A stretch of DNA of 26,090 nt. Origin: a virus. The DNA lies in IMG/VR virus record IMGVR_UViG_3300027883_000022, positions 1 through 26,090 of that record, one strand, 5' to 3'. Position 1 is the first letter of the stretch. The number at the start of each line of letters is the position of its first letter. This document shows, piece after piece, positions 3,790 to 24,224 of this stretch. The notes below the pieces were generated by a model. That model searched no databases. It was given only the letters and a program-made list of their open reading frames with translations, and was not told where the DNA came from. The position numbers were made by a program, and so were the translations under genes.

Positions 3790-6700
3790 ATGGCATTTAG
3801 AAAAATATCAGAATTAAGTTCAAGTTTAACCCCAAGTGGGAGTGGTATTATACCAATAGTAATAAATGGGACCACCTTTGGAACCACATTAGATGCAATA
3901 AAAGACCAAATCAATTCTGTGTTGACACCTCAATATGCGAGTTCGTCAATTACATCCTCGGTCGATACTCTGATAGGTAACGTTTCATCGTTAAACACCT
4001 TTACATCATCAGCAGATGGTCGTTTAGACTCTATAGAAATATTTACAGGTTCATTAAATGATTATTATGCGACTGACCAAGAGTTACTTGAGTTACGTGA
4101 ATATTTTAACACCTATAGTTCATCAAATAACACAGTTAACACTCAACAAAACATACGATTAGATGCGTTAGATGGTTTAGAAATTGCGACGGGATCACTT
4201 CTTACTCAAATCGAAACTGAGAAAGGTAGGATTGATGCAATTTTATTATCTTCTGATGCGGACAAAGATTCATTTAAAGAAATAGTTGATTTAATTAATA
4301 GTGTTGACACAGAAAATGACAACGCATTTGGAACATATGTCCTTAACACAAACGATAGATTAGATTCTTTAGAAATTGAGAGTGGTTCTTCTTCGAGTAG
4401 ATTAAATAAGATTGAGAGTGTTAGTGGTTCATGGATTACAATTGGGGATTTACCTCCACAACCAACACCTAACCCAACTCAATCACCAGTGGACCTATCC
4501 CTTATTGTCGGTCGTTTAGACAAATTAGAAATTGAGAGTGGATCAATTAGAGATGAGTTTAATTCTTTTACCTCTTCATATTTAATTGTTTCACAATCGT
4601 TTAATGATAGAATTTCCACCTTAGAGGGATATCATATACCAGAACCAACTGCGACACCAAATGCAACACCACAACCAACACCAATTGCAACTTCTGGACC
4701 AACATCGGTTTGGGAGATACTTTCATCAACACATTATGACGGTACCACATTTAATCACATATTGAATACCAAACATGTACCTGCAGGAACAGAATATTTC
4801 TGGTCTGTTGATGTTGCTGTCGTTGACCCATGGACTTGGGCGGTAGCTGCTGATTTTGAGGGAGGAGTAATTCCTTCAGGTTCAGGAACAATACCAACAT
4901 ATAATGAAACATTATCGATGTCTGATTCAATTTCTATAACAACAGTGGAAGATGGTTTAACAGAAGGCGACGAGGTTTACCAAATTATTATTAGAGAAGG
5001 TAGTGCGTCCGGTCCGATTGTCGAGCAGGTATTAGAGGTTATTGCTCAAACACCAACACCCACACCGAGTAGTACTCCAAATGCAACACCACAACCAACA
5101 CCAAATGCAACACCACAACAAACACCAGAACCTGATCCACCTACAAGTACACCAAACGCAACTCCTAATCCTACACCAAGCCCGAGTCCTACACCAAGCC
5201 CAAGTCCTACACCAACAGTAGAACCAGATCCAACACCCACACCAACAAGTACGGTAGAACCAACACCAACGGAAACGGTTGCACCTACAAGTACACCGAG
5301 TCCAACATCGACTCCGGAGTCCACACCGTCAAGTACATTTAATCTCTCGTTAGAAAGAATTCTTAAGGTGGCAACTTATTTTGAGTCTAATAGTTTAGAT
5401 GGTAATGTTGGAGGTAGATTCGAAACTAATAATCAAACCGTAACATTCAATGAAATGACACAGTGGATGTGTGATAATGATGGACACCTTACAGGTGTCT
5501 TAGCTAACCAAGGGAATGAACAGTATCCACATATATTTATCGAAAATGGAAACACCGTAGAAGTTGGAGCCACCATATATCGTGACTCATCAGGTACTCT
5601 ATTTACCGATGAAGGATTTTGTTTATATATGACACCTGGTCCACTTACCGTGGCATCAGGTCACACATGGGTTAGTGTGGACGCACTAAGTCAAGTAACA
5701 TCGGTAAGTCAGTTCTCATGTTCTACACCTACAAGTACACCAACCGCAACACCTAATCCTACACCTACAAGTACGGTAGAACCAACACCATATCCAAGTG
5801 CTACACCAAGTCCAACATCAACAGTTGCACCAACAAGTACCCCTAACCCCACACCAACGGAAACTGTAGATATCAGTAGTTTTAAATTACACGTTTACAA
5901 CCAATCATCAACATTTTCAATAACTGACTTTAAATTGGTTAAGTCAAACGGTGCAATGTCTAATAGATTAAGTTTTGATTCTTCGGGGACACACACAATA
6001 CAACCAAATAGTGATTCACACCATTCTGTTATTACTCTCGACACCGATTACAACAATGCAAGAATTAGTATTCCAACCACAGGTGGAGGGGTTTACTATG
6101 GGTGGTATTACTTAAACGGTTCTTTAGCTAATCAACTCGGTACATACTCATTTAGTAATTTGATTGACCTTAGAAGTGGTCCTGGTGGACAATACCAATA
6201 TTATACATTGTCATCAAGTGACGTGGTAGATTTGTATATTACAGAAACCAACACCCCACCCGTACCAGATCCAACTGCAACGGTGGAACCTACAAGTACT
6301 CCTAATCCTACACCAACACCAAGCCCGAGTCCAACATCAACAGTTGCACCTACAGGGTATACAACGACTGTAAATATTAGTACTGTTCAAGATTTTACAC
6401 CATCACTTACAGGATTAACTTTATGGTATACTGAAGTTTCAGAATCATACAGTCTCACACAAAATCAGTACGACGACACATTGAACTGGATTGAGGTCGG
6501 TACCTATAACCCTATTGCTGATTGTTCACAGGGAAATGGTTCTTCAAATCCTCTCAGTATTACTGTTTCTACACCCGTTGATGGGATCACGAATTTCGTT
6601 TACGTAATAACACAATATAGAGACTCCAATGGAACTGTTATATACGGTTCTCGATATACGTCCATGTGTAATTGGAATTGGCAACAGGAATACCATCTTA

Positions 6701-7347
6701 GGTTCGGACTTCAGAGAGGGATTAGTGGGAACACGGTTCATGACCGACAAGACTCAATATACCCTGACACCCTTTCAATTGTAACCCCAACAAGTACACC
6801 AACCGCAACACCTACTCCTACACCAACATCAACAGTTGCACCAACACCAACGGCAACAGTAGAACCTGTAAGTTGTATATCAGCCGCACCTCTCAATATA
6901 AACGTAGAGACTGAGTACGATAGTAACACTAATACCACAGACAGAAAATACATAACAAGTGATTTAGATGGAAATGGTGGTTTATTTGGTTGTATCAATG
7001 TTAATCGTGGTTCTACAGTAATAATAAACGTTACGGGAAGTGCACCAGATCTTGAAACACACCCAATAAAAATAACTAACTTTAATGGTTTAGATCAGCA
7101 CGAAGCACCACTCCCTAATGTGGTGAGTACGTGGAATGCAGGGGATCCATACACACTGACATGGGAAGTACCATGTGATGTGGGAATTACTCAATATCAG
7201 TATCAATGTGTAAATCACGCAGGTATGCGTGGTGTGATTAATGTGAGTGGAACGTGTCCAACACCAACACCAAATCCAACAAGTACACCAAACGCAACTC
7301 CTAATCCTACACCAGCGAATAACACCATATATGTACATACACCTTAA
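3790..7347 (+). CDS. Long multidomain tail-fibre/adhesin with Pro/Thr linkers and a C-terminal cupredoxin-like domain, 1185 aa
   Basis: Residues 1-45 ([13 protein letters not shown]) look like a virion-attachment start. Residues about 50-280 carry repeats of the form RLDxLEIxSGS (Arg at 78, 123, 189 and 242) and a [16 protein letters not shown] segment, both typical of phage fibre shafts. After this come globular domains separated by Pro/Thr/Ser-rich linkers, at about 284-306, 421-516, 646-693, 823-856, 999-1027 and 1157-1177. The first globular domain contains [11 protein letters not shown], resembling Calx-beta-type strands. The last (about 1030-1155) has the type-1 copper ligand set: His1091, Cys1140, His1143 and Met1146 (CVNHAGM). 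There is no signal peptide. The gene starts 10 nt after the previous stop with no promoter motif of its own, so it is probably co-transcribed. It most likely forms a flexible host-binding fibre; the receptor is unknown. Confidence 0.85.
5050..5337 (+). repeat. Longest Pro/Thr linker: low-complexity coding repeat
   Basis: About 96 codons made almost only of Pro, Thr, Ser, Asn, Ala, Val and Glu, in short units such as [11 protein letters not shown] and TPSPSPTP. Related but shorter stretches lie at about 4639-4707, 5724-5868, 6256-6355, 6784-6870 and 7258-7320. All are in frame within the fibre gene and share near-identical short DNA units built on acaccaac and caagtacacc. Confidence 0.85.
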
Positions 7348-7353
7348 TAAGAT

Positions 7354-8634
7354 ATGAATAACGAACAACTACAACAATTAACATTATCCATAAATGAATC
7401 AACATCTGAAGACGTTGTTTCTGTGGGATACGGTTTTAAAACCGTGAATGGTAAATTAACAAATGAAAAATCATTAGTTTATACCGTATCTAAAAAGAAA
7501 GATTTAAATGATATACCTGTAGACGAAAGAATTCCTTCTAATATTACTCATGAGGGTGAAATTTTAAAAACTGATGTGGTTGAAGGTATTGTAAGACCTC
7601 AAGGATATGGAATGTGTGACGCGTCTTTTTATACTTGGCAAACAACCGACCCAACTAATAGAGATGATCATAGACCTATAATGGGTGGTGTATCTGTAAC
7701 TAATTTTAGTAAATTAAGTAATTATGTTGGTACATTAGGTTTTATTGCTGTAGATAATGAAACAAATCATTTGGTTGGGGTTAGTAATAATCATGTACTT
7801 GTTAATGATGCGTGGATTACTTCAGAGAGAAATTTATCGGGTGTACAAACCAACGTACATAACGACCCCGTGATTCAACCTAACGAACCAGGTAAGTCTA
7901 ATTTAGGTTTTACAGTGGGTCAAGTCATAAGATACCAACCATTAAGTTCCCCCACAAACTATATTGATTGTGCAATTGCAATAATTAATGAAGGAATGAT
8001 AGACCCCAATGTTTCATGGAGACAACACAACATAAACACAATGAATGTAGCTCCAAGATTTGCAACAACACCAGAATTGGATCAATATTTATCAGAAGAT
8101 GGTAGAGAATATTTTAGTGCGGGAAGAACCACCGGTGGTAAAGGTGAAGGAGTGGTTAAATTATTTAGAGATCAATTTGCATCATCAATAACTATAAACT
8201 ATAAAAAACAAGGGGTAGACGTGACGACCAAGATGAACGACACTTTCAGTCTAATGGCAAGTGGATCCACAACACCCACCGGCGACACGTGTTTTTACCC
8301 ATCAAGTGGGGGAGACTCGGGTTCGGCGGTTTTAACATACGACGAAAATATTAATCAGTGGTTAATTGTTGGTCTTTTATATGGTGGGATAATAATTAAC
8401 GATGATGATATTGAAAAACCTATCCGTACGTTATGTAATAGAATAGACAGAATTGAGAGTCTAATGAATATTAGATCTTGGGATGGGACTATGAACGGAA
8501 TAACACCATATGGTGGTGGAGATTCAATACACATAGTAGAAGGATCATCACAAGTCATAAGTATGGTAATAGGTGGTAAAACTTATTGGCAGTTAGGTTT
8601 GGTTAATTCTACGTCGTATCCACCCTCTATATAA
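7354..8634 (+). CDS. Trypsin/chymotrypsin-fold serine protease, 426 aa
   Basis: A catalytic triad can be read: His147 in VGVSNNHVLV, Asp205 in YIDCAIAII, and Ser322 in SSGGDSGSAVL (the GDSGS signature), in the order and approximate spacing of peptidase family S1. The N-terminal 75 residues (VGYGFKTVNGKLTNEKSLV, then KTDVVEG) resemble the pro-region of bacterial trypsin-like proteases, in which a strand-rich module precedes the protease. There is no secretion signal, so it would act on the particle, be carried to the host surface, or work in the cytoplasm. It begins 6 nt after the fibre gene stop with no promoter motif, so it is probably translated from the same mRNA. Possible roles are fibre maturation by cleavage or degradation of a host surface protein; the sequence does not decide. 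Residues after about 375 form a short C-terminal extension of unknown role. Confidence 0.8.
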   Translation: MNNEQLQQLTLSINESTSEDVVSVGYGFKTVNGKLTNEKSLVYTVSKKKDLNDIPVDERIPSNITHEGEILKTDVVEGIVRPQGYGMCDASFYTWQTTDPTNRDDHRPIMGGVSVTNFSKLSNYVGTLGFIAVDNETNHLVGVSNNHVLVNDAWITSERNLSGVQTNVHNDPVIQPNEPGKSNLGFTVGQVIRYQPLSSPTNYIDCAIAIINEGMIDPNVSWRQHNINTMNVAPRFATTPELDQYLSEDGREYFSAGRTTGGKGEGVVKLFRDQFASSITINYKKQGVDVTTKMNDTFSLMASGSTTPTGDTCFYPSSGGDSGSAVLTYDENINQWLIVGLLYGGIIINDDDIEKPIRTLCNRIDRIESLMNIRSWDGTMNGITPYGGGDSIHIVEGSSQVISMVIGGKTYWQLGLVNSTSYPPSI

Positions 8635-20947: not shown

Positions 20948-21436
20948 ATGGCAGATTTATTAATGAAAATGCCGGTTCCCTACGAACCGAAAAGAGTTAA
21001 CCGATTTATCGTTAGATTTCCATCATCATTGGGAATCAATGAATGGTATGTAACGTCGGCAGCAAGACCGAGTGCTAAGATAAACGCGGTGGAGATACCA
21101 TTTTTAAATACCTCAACTTATGTTGCTGGTAGATTTACATGGGATACCCTAAGAGTTAAATTTAAAGATCCAATCGGACCATCAGCGTCACAAGCGTTAA
21201 TGGAATGGTTTAGATTACACGCAGAATCTGTAACGGGTAGAATGGGTTACGCTGCAGGGTATAAAAAAGATATTGAATTAGAAATGTTAGACCCAACTGG
21301 TGTTGTGGTTGAGAAATGGATTCTTCAAGGTACGTTCATGCAAGATTTGAATTTTGGTGAATTAGATTACAACAATGATGCACTTGCAACAATTGATTGT
21401 ACATTGAGAATGGATAGATGTATCCAAGTTTACTAA
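20948..21436 (+). CDS. 19: Tail tube protein (gp19-like), 162 aa
   Basis: The length matches T4 gp19 (163 aa), and the sequence follows that family: an N-terminal strand in RVNRFIVRFPSSLGINEWYV, a central segment with AVEIPFLNTSTYVAGRFTWD, then LRVKFKDPIGPSASQALMEW and a C-terminal YKKDIELEMLDPTGVVVEKW. It ends in an acidic strand with LATIDCTLRMDRC. Gp19 hexamers stack to make the rigid inner tube that is driven into the host cell. The gene is monocistronic in appearance: its own promoter motif in front and a strong terminator behind, so its dose can be set independently of the sheath. Confidence 0.93.
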   Translation: MADLLMKMPVPYEPKRVNRFIVRFPSSLGINEWYVTSAARPSAKINAVEIPFLNTSTYVAGRFTWDTLRVKFKDPIGPSASQALMEWFRLHAESVTGRMGYAAGYKKDIELEMLDPTGVVVEKWILQGTFMQDLNFGELDYNNDALATIDCTLRMDRCIQVY

Positions 21437-21460
21437 TAAAATAATCTGTCAAATATATTA

Positions 21461-21488
21461 AGGGGACCACTATGGTCCCTTTTTTTTT
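21461..21488 (+). terminator. Strong intrinsic terminator after tail tube
   Basis: AGGGGACCA (21461-21469) pairs with TGGTCCCTT (21473-21481) around a CTA loop (9 bp including one G-T pair), with nine Ts at 21480-21488. It is the clearest intrinsic terminator in the window. Confidence 0.93.
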
Positions 21489-21508
21489 GTTTAAACTTTA
21501 CTTTAGTC

Positions 21509-21533: not shown

Positions 21534-22292
21534 ATGGAAGATAAACGTGAATATGTTATAGACCCAAACATCAGTTATGATGTTGTTGAGTTGCCGAGTC
21601 GGGGTATTATGTACCCTAATCGAACAAAATCCGTCAAAGTTGCTTATTTAACTGCGGCAGATGAAAATATCCTGTCTTCACCAAACTTAATTGCAAGTGG
21701 AGAGGTAATTAATGAATTACTTAAAAGAAAGGTTCTTACTAAGGAAATTGCAATTGAAGATATGGTTGAAGAAGATAGACAAGCAATTCTTATCTTTTTA
21801 CGTAATACCGCATTCGGACCTGAGATTGGAATGAGAATAACCGATCCAAAAACAGAAGAAGAATTTGAAACGGTAATTGATTTATCTGAACTAACATACA
21901 AAGAATTCAACTTAGTCGAAGATGAGAACGGACAATATCCATATTTCTTAGAAAAAAGTAAGGTTGATGTTACATTTAATTTCTTAACACCTAATGATGA
22001 GAAAGAATTAAATGAAATCACCAAAAGTTGGAACGGTCTTGGTACCGCACCAATCGTCACAAAGAGATTAGAGAAGATGATTAAATCGGTAAAAGGAAAT
22101 AAAGACCCTATGAATATTAGGAATTTTATTGAAACAATGCCAATTGCTGATTCTCAAAAGTTTAGACGTTATGTAAGAGATAATAAACCTGGGGTGGATT
22201 TGTCCCGAACAATTTACGCCCCATCAGGAGAAGAAGTTACGTTCAACGTAAACTTCGGGGTGGAGTTTTTTCGTCCTTTCTACGGATTATAG
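21534..22292 (+). CDS. 26: Baseplate hub/tail-assembly protein (T4 gp26-like), 252 aa in the zero frame
   Basis: The N-terminal half matches the T4-type gp26 family: VELPSRGIMYPNRTKSVKV (residues 18-36), then LTAADENILSSPNLIASG (39-56), LLKRKVLTKEIAIEDMV and DRQAILIFLRNTAFGPEIG. T4 gp26 takes part in assembly of the baseplate hub. The zero frame ends FFRPFYGL at a TAG (22290-22292). A second open frame, shifted by +1, overlaps the end and continues to 22425 without any ATG, GTG or TTG at its beginning, so a frameshifted longer product of about 296 aa is likely (see the next entry). The place between tube and tape measure is that of the G/GT tail chaperones in other phages. No Shine-Dalgarno sequence is seen; the leader is A/T-rich. 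Confidence 0.85.
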   Translation: MEDKREYVIDPNISYDVVELPSRGIMYPNRTKSVKVAYLTAADENILSSPNLIASGEVINELLKRKVLTKEIAIEDMVEEDRQAILIFLRNTAFGPEIGMRITDPKTEEEFETVIDLSELTYKEFNLVEDENGQYPYFLEKSKVDVTFNFLTPNDEKELNEITKSWNGLGTAPIVTKRLEKMIKSVKGNKDPMNIRNFIETMPIADSQKFRRYVRDNKPGVDLSRTIYAPSGEEVTFNVNFGVEFFRPFYGL

Positions 22293-22425
22293 GAGTAATA
22301 GGCTTACGGAGATCACATTCTTAGTTCAAAACGGGTTTACACACGCAGATATTCTTGATATGCCGGTTTTTGAACGAAAGTACTACATTGAAAAAATTAT
22401 AGAGCTCAAAAACCCACAGTCTTAA
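22252..22425 (+). CDS. Frameshift extension of the gp26-like protein, +1 frame
   Basis: The frame is open from 22252 (after a TAA at 22249-22251) to the TAA at 22423-22425. Past the end of the zero frame it encodes LTEITFLVQNGFTHADILDM then PVFERKYYIEKIIELKNPQS, a compact helical segment resembling short modules with D-I/V-x-x-M/L-P-V-x-E-R that follow gp26- and chaperone-type proteins in other phages. No usual start codon precedes the conserved part; the only ATG (encoding the Met of DMPVF) is too late. The likely shift site is TTT TTT C at 22266-22272, directly after GGGGTGGAG. A slip of tRNA-Phe from TTT to TTC would join residue 246 to 50 extra residues. Alternatives are a sequencing error, a true gene fusion in the parent, or start at a rare codon. 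Confidence 0.7.
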   Translation, partial: TSGWSFFVLSTDYRSNRLTEITFLVQNGFTHADILDMPVFERKYYIEKIIELKNPQS

Positions 22426-22436: not shown

Positions 22437-24224
22437 ATGGCAGATATTGGTAGGCAAACTAAGATGTTGAAGGATTGGGTAGAAGCAAATCCCAATGCGA
22501 CAACAGAGGAACAAATGGCAAAGGCAGTCAAATTAGCTAACGCCGAGAAACAAAAAACATCAGGTAATGGAAATCCTGAGGAGGGTTTAATTGCTAAATC
22601 AATTTTAGCATCCGCGAATACTGACCAATATGCGTCTGTTAGTAGTAACACATCAATCGAGAAATTTGCTGAGTTATATACTAAAGCAAAAAATGAAGGG
22701 GGTAACCCTATAGAAAAGTTCTTTTCGGGATTACAAGGTGTAGCCACTAATCAAACTGAAACATACGCCAAAGAACAAGTATATATGTTACGTCAGATGA
22801 ACGCAGAAATGGGTTTGACTGGTGATTTTTCAAGAGATTTTAGGGATTCATTAAATGAGACAATTCCAGCCTTACAAGGAATGGGTCTTGGTGTTTCTGA
22901 TATTGTTGAACATACGAAACAGATGGTTGATGATTCAGGTAAGTTTGCATTCATAACAACTGAATCACAGATTAAGGCGGCTGAAATTGCCACTGCATTT
23001 GGAATGACAATGAAAGAACTTGCGGGTTCTTACAAATCGTTTGAAAATGTTGGTATTGGAGCAAGAGGAGCAACTACTGCAATCGGTGAAGCGGGGAAAA
23101 GATCGTTAGAGCTTGGTTTACAATCACAAACAACAATTAAGGGTTTACAAGATAACGTTGAAAAATTAAATGAATTTGGTTTCCAAAATGGAATACGTGG
23201 TTTAGAGAATATGGTAAGAAAATCAACAGAATTTAGAATGAGTGTTGAAAGTGTCTTCCAAGTTGCTGATAAAGTATTCTCACCTGAGGGTGCACTTGAA
23301 ATGGCGGCTAACCTACAAGTGGTTGGTGGTGCTATGGGTGCATTAAATAACCCACTTGAAATGATGTATATGGCAACTAACAATGTTGAAGGTCTACAAG
23401 ACGCAATACTTGAATCATCAAAAAGTCTTGCTACGTTCAATAACGAATCGGGTAGATTTGAAGTTGTGGGTGTTAACATTAGAAAGGCTAAGGATATGGC
23501 AGATGCTTTAGGTATATCATACAAAGAACATACTAACTCGGCAATTGCGGGTAACGAAAGAATGCAAGCAATGAATGATATGTCAGGGGTTAGTATACCT
23601 GAAGAAACAAAAGAATTCCTTACCAACCTTGCTACATTAAACGAACAAGGGGAAATGACAATTGCTCTTAAAGGTGACGTAGCCGAAAAACTTGGAAAAA
23701 CCGAAATTAAGATGACTGACATGACAACGGAGATTGCTGCGGAATTGAAGAAATACCAAGACGACTTTAAGACCTTGAATCCTGAACAAATTATTGAACA
23801 ACAAGCAAATGCGGTTCAAAACATCATGAGAGATGTAAATATGCTTTTAGGGGTTGCAAGAATGAAAGCGGCTGGTGTCGCAGATTCGGGGATTGAAGCA
23901 CTATTTGGTATGGACTCTAAAGATTTGGGAAAATTAATAAGTGGTAAGAGTGAGGATGGTAAAGATTATCTAACCACATATATTGAAAAAGGAATGTCGG
24001 GTCTCCAACAAGTAATAAATAAAGCAAGTTCATCGGCTGACGACATTAAAGAATCTCAAAAAAAGGAAAAGGAACAAGCGACAACTCAATCAAATACAAC
24101 TCAAGACCAAACCATTACCATCAAGTCGGACTCTGCAATGGGAGCATACCAAAGACAAATACAGAGTAATCCTCAATATTGGGCCGATTTAATGAAGAGT
24201 GATCCACGTGGATATACAACATAA
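22437..24224 (+). CDS. Probable tail tape measure protein, 595 aa
   Basis: Placed directly after the gp26/chaperone-type gene and before baseplate genes, which is the usual place of the tape measure. The product is almost wholly predicted helical and rich in Ala, Glu, Lys, Met and Gly, with amphipathic segments such as TETYAKEQVYMLRQMNAEMG and SQIKAAEIATAFGMTMKEL. The C-terminus (after about 540) is low-complexity, charged and Gln/Thr-rich (KKEKEQATTQSNTTQ). The length is close to that of T4 gp29 (590 aa), the T4 tape measure; at roughly 1.5 angstrom per helical residue this would match a tail of about 90 nm. No catalytic motif was found. The call rests on position and composition rather than on a clear family motif. 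Confidence 0.72.
   Translation: MADIGRQTKMLKDWVEANPNATTEEQMAKAVKLANAEKQKTSGNGNPEEGLIAKSILASANTDQYASVSSNTSIEKFAELYTKAKNEGGNPIEKFFSGLQGVATNQTETYAKEQVYMLRQMNAEMGLTGDFSRDFRDSLNETIPALQGMGLGVSDIVEHTKQMVDDSGKFAFITTESQIKAAEIATAFGMTMKELAGSYKSFENVGIGARGATTAIGEAGKRSLELGLQSQTTIKGLQDNVEKLNEFGFQNGIRGLENMVRKSTEFRMSVESVFQVADKVFSPEGALEMAANLQVVGGAMGALNNPLEMMYMATNNVEGLQDAILESSKSLATFNNESGRFEVVGVNIRKAKDMADALGISYKEHTNSAIAGNERMQAMNDMSGVSIPEETKEFLTNLATLNEQGEMTIALKGDVAEKLGKTEIKMTDMTTEIAAELKKYQDDFKTLNPEQIIEQQANAVQNIMRDVNMLLGVARMKAAGVADSGIEALFGMDSKDLGKLISGKSEDGKDYLTTYIEKGMSGLQQVINKASSSADDIKESQKKEKEQATTQSNTTQDQTITIKSDSAMGAYQRQIQSNPQYWADLMKSDPRGYTT

Follow-up and report, generated by a model that had tools for sequence, protein, structure and literature searches.

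Tail assembly chaperones that exist in a short form and a frameshift-extended form are well known in long-tailed phages. Xu, Hendrix and Duda are said to have described this frameshift in 2004, with lambda gpG and gpGT as the example. In lambda, the gene lies between the tail tube and tape measure genes, and the extension is encoded in another frame that has no start codon. The shift in lambda-type systems, whose proteins are of the G family, is -1 (-2 in phage Mu). The tail chaperone frameshift has been reviewed as conserved in long-tailed phages ‘except T4’ (PMC5009743). The T4 proteins gp26 and gp51 are hub assembly chaperones, and gp51 is needed for assembly and absent from the final particle (PMC3004832).

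Only a few +1 cases are known. The tail assembly chaperone of Bacillus phage Moonbeam has an annotated +1 shift (PMC4299906), with the slippage placed on CGA TTT CAA, a UUU_C site (positions 4970-4975 of the fetched locus, L242). The haloarchaeal myovirus HSTV-2 and Listeria phage PSA also have +1 frameshifts in tail genes (PMC5009743); in PSA the slip is on a Pro codon and lengthens the capsid and major tail proteins. A +1 shift on UUU_CGN has been shown for influenza A PA-X (PMC3498833) and proposed for plant amalgaviruses (PMC5052127); tRNA-Phe slips from UUU onto UUC while CGN occupies the A site, and no stop codon is needed. The RF2 shift, in contrast, combines a Shine-Dalgarno-like element with a stop codon in the A site.

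The window analysed here is a stretch of 26,090 nucleotides from the IMG/VR virus record IMGVR_UViG_3300027883_000022. On its plus strand we identified a gp26-like open reading frame (21534-22292) that encodes 252 amino acids and ends in ...GVEFFRPFYGL*. Its final codons are AAC TTC GGG GTG GAG TTT TTT CGT CCT TTC TAC GGA TTA TAG, and the stop codon (22290-22292), separated from the putative slip codon by six codons, ends the 252-residue product. A second frame on the same strand, displaced by +1, is open from 22252 to 22425 with its TAA stop at 22423-22425. The last 50 codons of this frame and the stop (22273-22425; VLSTDYRSNRLTEITFLVQNGFTHADILDMPVFERKYYIEKIIELKNPQS) form a conserved domain that is not preceded by a usual start codon. 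Within the overlap lies the tract TTTTTTC (22266-22272), directly preceded by GGGGTGGAG (22257-22265). The tract and the stretch before it lie where the preliminary description had placed them. Reading TTTC (22269-22272) as one Phe, which is used only once in the gp26-like gene, gives a single product of 296 residues. The 16 main open reading frames of the window contain in-frame TTT CGN a single time, at the shift site, where the zero-frame codon CGT (22272-22274) follows the slip codon. Among the Arg codons of the window’s reading frames, CGC accounts for 1 of 304 and AGA for 65%.

Profile searches place the gp26-like protein in the PF12322 family of T4 gp26 and gp51. It matches PF12322 (T4_baseplate) over most of its length (residues 32-216; E 3.9e-7, above cut-off) as well as phrog_150 (baseplate hub; 6.2e-10). 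The AF2 model of the zero-frame product has a pLDDT of 92.7 and matches predicted structures of viral gp26-type proteins, with a best value of 8.1e-27 and a value of 4.9e-15 for the ‘baseplate hub subunit’ of Bacillus phage SP-15. A fold search of the PDB with this model gave no significant match. The tail assembly chaperone of HK97 (2ob9) ranked 19th (probability 0.28, TM-score 0.45 by target length) and had the highest probability among the 50 PDB matches listed, despite an E-value of 2.1 that is not significant. The Moonbeam chaperone, which likewise comes from a contractile-tailed phage and likewise has a +1 shift on TTT_C, belongs to a different family (phrog_1038/4988) and gave no match to the gp26 profile.

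The gene context also fits a G/GT pair. Upstream is a tail tube gene related to T4 gp19 (20948-21436, plus strand; phrog_4542, 6.3e-26), and downstream, on the same strand, is a gene for a 595-residue protein in the tape-measure position (22437-24224), whose product gave no convincing family match. Both Flavobacterium phage immuto and Listeria phage LIS04 have an annotated tape measure gene directly after the pair. In the window, a terminator-like hairpin with a T run (21460-21489) separates the tail tube gene from the gp26-like gene, and a terminator is annotated at the equivalent place in phage SP-15.

The two-frame layout is widely conserved. A first search returned 28 IMG/VR loci with 63-100% identity, and TTTTTTCGY and the +1 extension are present in every one of these loci that reaches the gene end. 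Wider scans returned at least 573 and at least 596 relatives, and a third scan returned 35. Among the fetched IMG/VR and GenBank loci, 220 could be scored, that is, had a recognisable extension, which lies in the +1 frame in 211 and in the -1 frame in nine. The +1 layout extends over three protein groups with identities as low as about 20% at the protein level, with both frames and the slip motif kept, and we found no relative with a single continuous frame among the +1-clade loci sampled. The preliminary description had considered a +1 shift unusual in a T4-type gp26 gene; it is instead the rule in this branch of the family.

GenBank isolates with the layout include Flavobacterium phage immuto, Microcystis phage Mel-JY01, Listeria phage LIS04, Streptococcus phage GXN1, Bacillus phage SP-15 and Rhodothermus phage RM378. 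The isolates of the +1 branch infect Bacteroidota, Firmicutes, a cyanobacterium and Rhodothermus. In their records the extension is either unannotated or given as a short separate reading frame. Two short GenBank ‘hypothetical proteins’, QQO92150.1 (L030, 3327-3437) and SP15_046 (L038, 3321-3440), fall within the +1 extension and probably represent pieces of it annotated in error. A single scan of genome_contigs returned only one relative (L240), with TTT TTT CGT followed by the extension in the +1 frame. Its contig, which may be from a phage or a prophage, had been assigned to a rumen Erysipelotrichaceae MAG.

The extension is under purifying selection, with pN<pS in 666 of 666 pairs and a dN/dS of about 0.25 across 61 close pairs. 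It matched DUF6760 (PF20546) only weakly (E 0.025, below the cut-off of that profile). Given the near-exclusive +1 placement, the selection on the extension and the nearly invariant slip codons described below, the layout is far beyond chance, and the gp26-like gene with its overlapping +1 frame is a real feature.

The extension might instead be a separate small protein that starts within the overlap by translational coupling or at a non-AUG codon. Homologous domains do have their own ATG in the T4/cyanophage clade, in LR756511 (L039) and in Cygsa01 (L042), and an AGGAG in the window just past the start of the zero-frame stop would also favour separate initiation. In the +1 clade, however, the +1 frame of 52 of 149 unique loci lacks any ATG, GTG or TTG ahead of the domain, an ATG is present in only 42, and we found no start codon common to all of the remaining loci that do have one of the three. 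Furthermore, the residues immediately after the slip are conserved in the +1 frame in group B ([GT]L, then usually Y four residues on), whereas the zero-frame tail of that group (FFWPxx, FFYPxx or FFWPxxxx) varies in sequence and length. Independent initiation is therefore very unlikely in this clade, and it would leave the conservation of UUU_Y and CGY, which far exceeds codon usage, unexplained. As in lambda, a conserved, shift-prone overlap leads into an extension that lacks its own start, and we conclude that a +1 programmed frameshift very probably yields two forms of this protein, most likely a tail assembly chaperone pair of the G/GT type. The sequence comparisons thus support the frameshift proposed in the preliminary description, and the checks that could be computed came out in its favour.

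The codons at the site point to where the shift would happen. In the window’s family (38 representatives, less than 95% identical in nucleotide sequence) the motif is UUU_UUU_CGY; GGG, TTT TTT and CCT are each present in 38/38 and CGY in 37/38. The same genes otherwise use GGG for 11.5% of Gly, TTT for 79% of Phe, CCT for 23% of Pro, CGT for 5% of Arg and CGC for none (0/360), although CGC is the codon at the site in 21 of the 38 representatives; +1 coding may also underlie the CCT signal and some of that for CGY, because these bases are read in both frames. Across 129 representatives of the three groups (less than 90% nucleotide identity), UUU followed by a pyrimidine occupies the site in 123-124, compared with 15-19% of other Phe codons. 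UUU_Y is thus conserved beyond what codon usage and amino-acid needs explain. Phe246 is invariant in 93 sequences.

Eight loci (L025, L088, L093, L094, L098, L100, L104 and L120) have a +1-frame stop, GTA GAG read as TAG, directly 5' of TTT TTT. With this stop upstream and the zero-frame stop a few codons downstream, UUU_Y is the only good site for +1 re-pairing. A slip at GGG_G (22257-22260) was considered and discarded, since L025 and seven other loci have TAG between GGG_G and TTT TTT.

A ribosomal shift of -2 would reach the same frame and add one residue. Phage Mu uses such a shift for its own G/GT pair (PMC5009743, PMC3498833), and the TTTTTT of the window would let tRNA-Phe re-pair two bases back. 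The same slip would produce mismatches in relatives with AGC TTT CTT, AAC TTT CTA or TTC TTT CGT, where a +1 slip re-pairs well (UUC), and we consider a -2 shift very improbable. The peptide across the junction would be GVEFFVLSTDYR after a +1 shift and GVEFFFVLSTDYR after a -2 shift.

The two frames might also stem from the T run, either by transcriptional slippage or through an indel introduced in sequencing or assembly, as the window has six T in a row and group B has seven (TTTTTTTGG). However, some 150 distinct loci, drawn from many samples, and finished isolate genomes show the layout, and selection keeps both frames. Relatives with TTC TTT CGY (L034, L085, L207, L215, L221 and L231) have only three T in a row, so that neither poly-T slippage nor a miscounted homopolymer can explain them, and the earlier doubt about the T count is removed by those with TTC TTT CGT. 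We regard an origin in the T run as extremely improbable.

A small number of loci depart from the UUU_Y rule: four of 26 group-C representatives, L219 and L191. The four group-C loci (L224, L227, L229 and L233), all +1 relatives, have TTA TTT AAT, TTA TTC AAT or CTA TTC AAT, in each case followed by CCC AGT, and may shift at CCC_A. In L191, which falls within the UUU_U group, the site is TTC TTC TGG (around 2253) and the extension is in the -1 frame; the slip site was either lost naturally or disrupted by an error in assembly.

The preliminary description had likened the stretch 5' of the slip site, GGGGTGGAG, to the Shine-Dalgarno-like stimulator of RF2. Part of this proposal stands: in the window’s family the invariant GGG is accompanied by GAG in 27/38 (20% of Glu elsewhere), and +1 coding does not account for the conserved upstream GGGG, since that frame has a stop there in some relatives. 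The stretch is absent from many group-B relatives and is not kept in the other +1 groups. It is thus a plausible stimulator for the window’s own family rather than a general feature. Unlike RF2, the A site holds CGY, UGG or UAY and no stop codon. We detected no downstream stimulatory RNA structure in 37 representatives (mean z +0.31).

We propose the following mechanism for the +1 shift. Most ribosomes would stop at 22290 and release the 252-residue form. In a fraction, with the rare Arg codon CGU still waiting to be read in the A site, the P-site tRNA-Phe would let go of UUU (22269-22271) and re-pair with UUC (22270-22272), a shift of +1. More generally, a slow A-site codon, CGY in the window’s family, may encourage tRNA-Phe to slip from UUU to UUC or UUU. 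Shifted ribosomes would read 50 more codons and produce the 296-residue form, which would end in a small, probably helical domain of the gp51 type. The two forms would most likely work as a pair of tail assembly chaperones in the manner of lambda gpG and gpGT. The part that they share may hold the tape measure or the baseplate hub during assembly, and the rare extension may recruit a further tail component. The conserved overlap, the slip codons, the purifying selection and the homology to gp26 and gp51 can be read from the sequences themselves; from these we infer the direction of the slip on the ribosome, its efficiency and the chaperone function. In slip codon and A-site context the site resembles that of PA-X and the amalgaviruses, which are eukaryotic RNA viruses, whereas the window is from a bacterial DNA virus and group B, unlike them, uses UUU_U before UGG or UAY.

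The analogy with tail chaperones drawn in the preliminary description extends further than it had suggested, to T4 itself. T4 gp26 (8.8e-64) and T4 gp51 (3.9e-52) are both full-length matches to PF12322, but only gp51 continues past the end of the profile, by about 48 residues, with a C-terminus like the extension. Compared with one another, the three +1 groups have alignable extension profiles (p 1e-8 to 4e-13). For groups B and C the profile also aligns with the gp51 C-termini of T4, KVP40, cyanophages and others (p 2.5e-7 and 7.5e-6), and for the window’s own group it does so more weakly (p 1.1e-3); the comparisons with gp51 exceed 100 of 100 column-shuffled controls for all three groups. 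T4 gp26 and gp51 would thus be the short and long versions of one protein, and T4 appears to encode them as the paralogous genes 26 (short) and 51 (with the extension). At the T4 locus (L036, 6803-8229) the extension is present in gp51 alone. Cyanophage and marine vibriophage gp51 lacks the first ~200 residues, according to a 2010 comparison of T4-like phages (PMC3037559), which fits with these proteins being the extension alone. The T4 proteins fall in the same family as the gp26-like protein (PF12322, phrog_150), whose extension has homologues in the C-terminus of T4 gp51 and in cyanophage gp51. Neither system needs a +1 shift, as T4 has two paralogous genes and the cyanophages have a short gene with a separate start.

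In a phylogenetic tree, a +1 branch (41/44 sampled rows) is distinguished from a branch of T4, KVP40 and cyanophages, which has -1-frame overlaps, a separately started gp51 or the T4 paralogue pair. T4 gp26 and gp51 group together (93/86), within a clade whose extensions are otherwise in the -1 frame or separately started. The deep order of this tree is tentative, as branches are long and several forks are weak. The -1-frame overlaps occur at GAT TTT TTC or AGT TTT TTC, that is, T_TTT_TTC. Homologous extensions in the -1 frame were observed in Vibrio phage Bakedbeans (L041), KVP40 (L043), L238, L239 and Stenotrophomonas phage RAS14 (L035), and the Phe-Phe codons that carry the slip site in the +1 branch form part of a T_TTT_TTC or T_TTT_TTT heptamer in these loci. 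The conserved part of the Bakedbeans extension has no ATG ahead of it, which makes a -1 shift likely, and in KVP40 a TAATG start is also present. We suggest that T4-type phages likely do have a G/GT pair, with gp26 as G and gp51 as GT, expressed by +1 shifting on UUU_Y in a large branch and, in further branches, probably by a -1 slip at these Phe-Phe codons or from a separate start, and by gene duplication in T4.

We found no description of a frameshift in gp26, or of gp26 and gp51 as a G/GT pair, in the literature searched, which lies mostly outside subscription journals; the gp26-family case is new to that literature, and an earlier mention is possible. If correct, this reading offers a sequence-based answer to where the chaperone pair of T4 went, and would account for cyanophage gp51 corresponding only to the final fifth of T4 gp51. 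For gp26 and gp51, which have long gone under the names of hub proteins or assembly catalysts, it would provide a role that is concrete and testable. The relatives provide a large natural set of candidate bacterial +1 sites on UUU_Y that have neither a stop codon nor an RNA structure and that match the PA-X motif. Current annotation breaks these genes, as in immuto, LIS04, SP-15 and RM378.

Two further proteins encoded in the window were observed. The region 3790-7347 encodes a fibre-like protein of 1185 residues with many Pro/Thr-rich, repeat-like linkers between its domains. The region 7354-8634 encodes a 426-residue protein with the trypsin-like serine protease signature GDSGSA and a match to Peptidase_S6 (2.3e-5), a signature that is unusual in a phage structural region.
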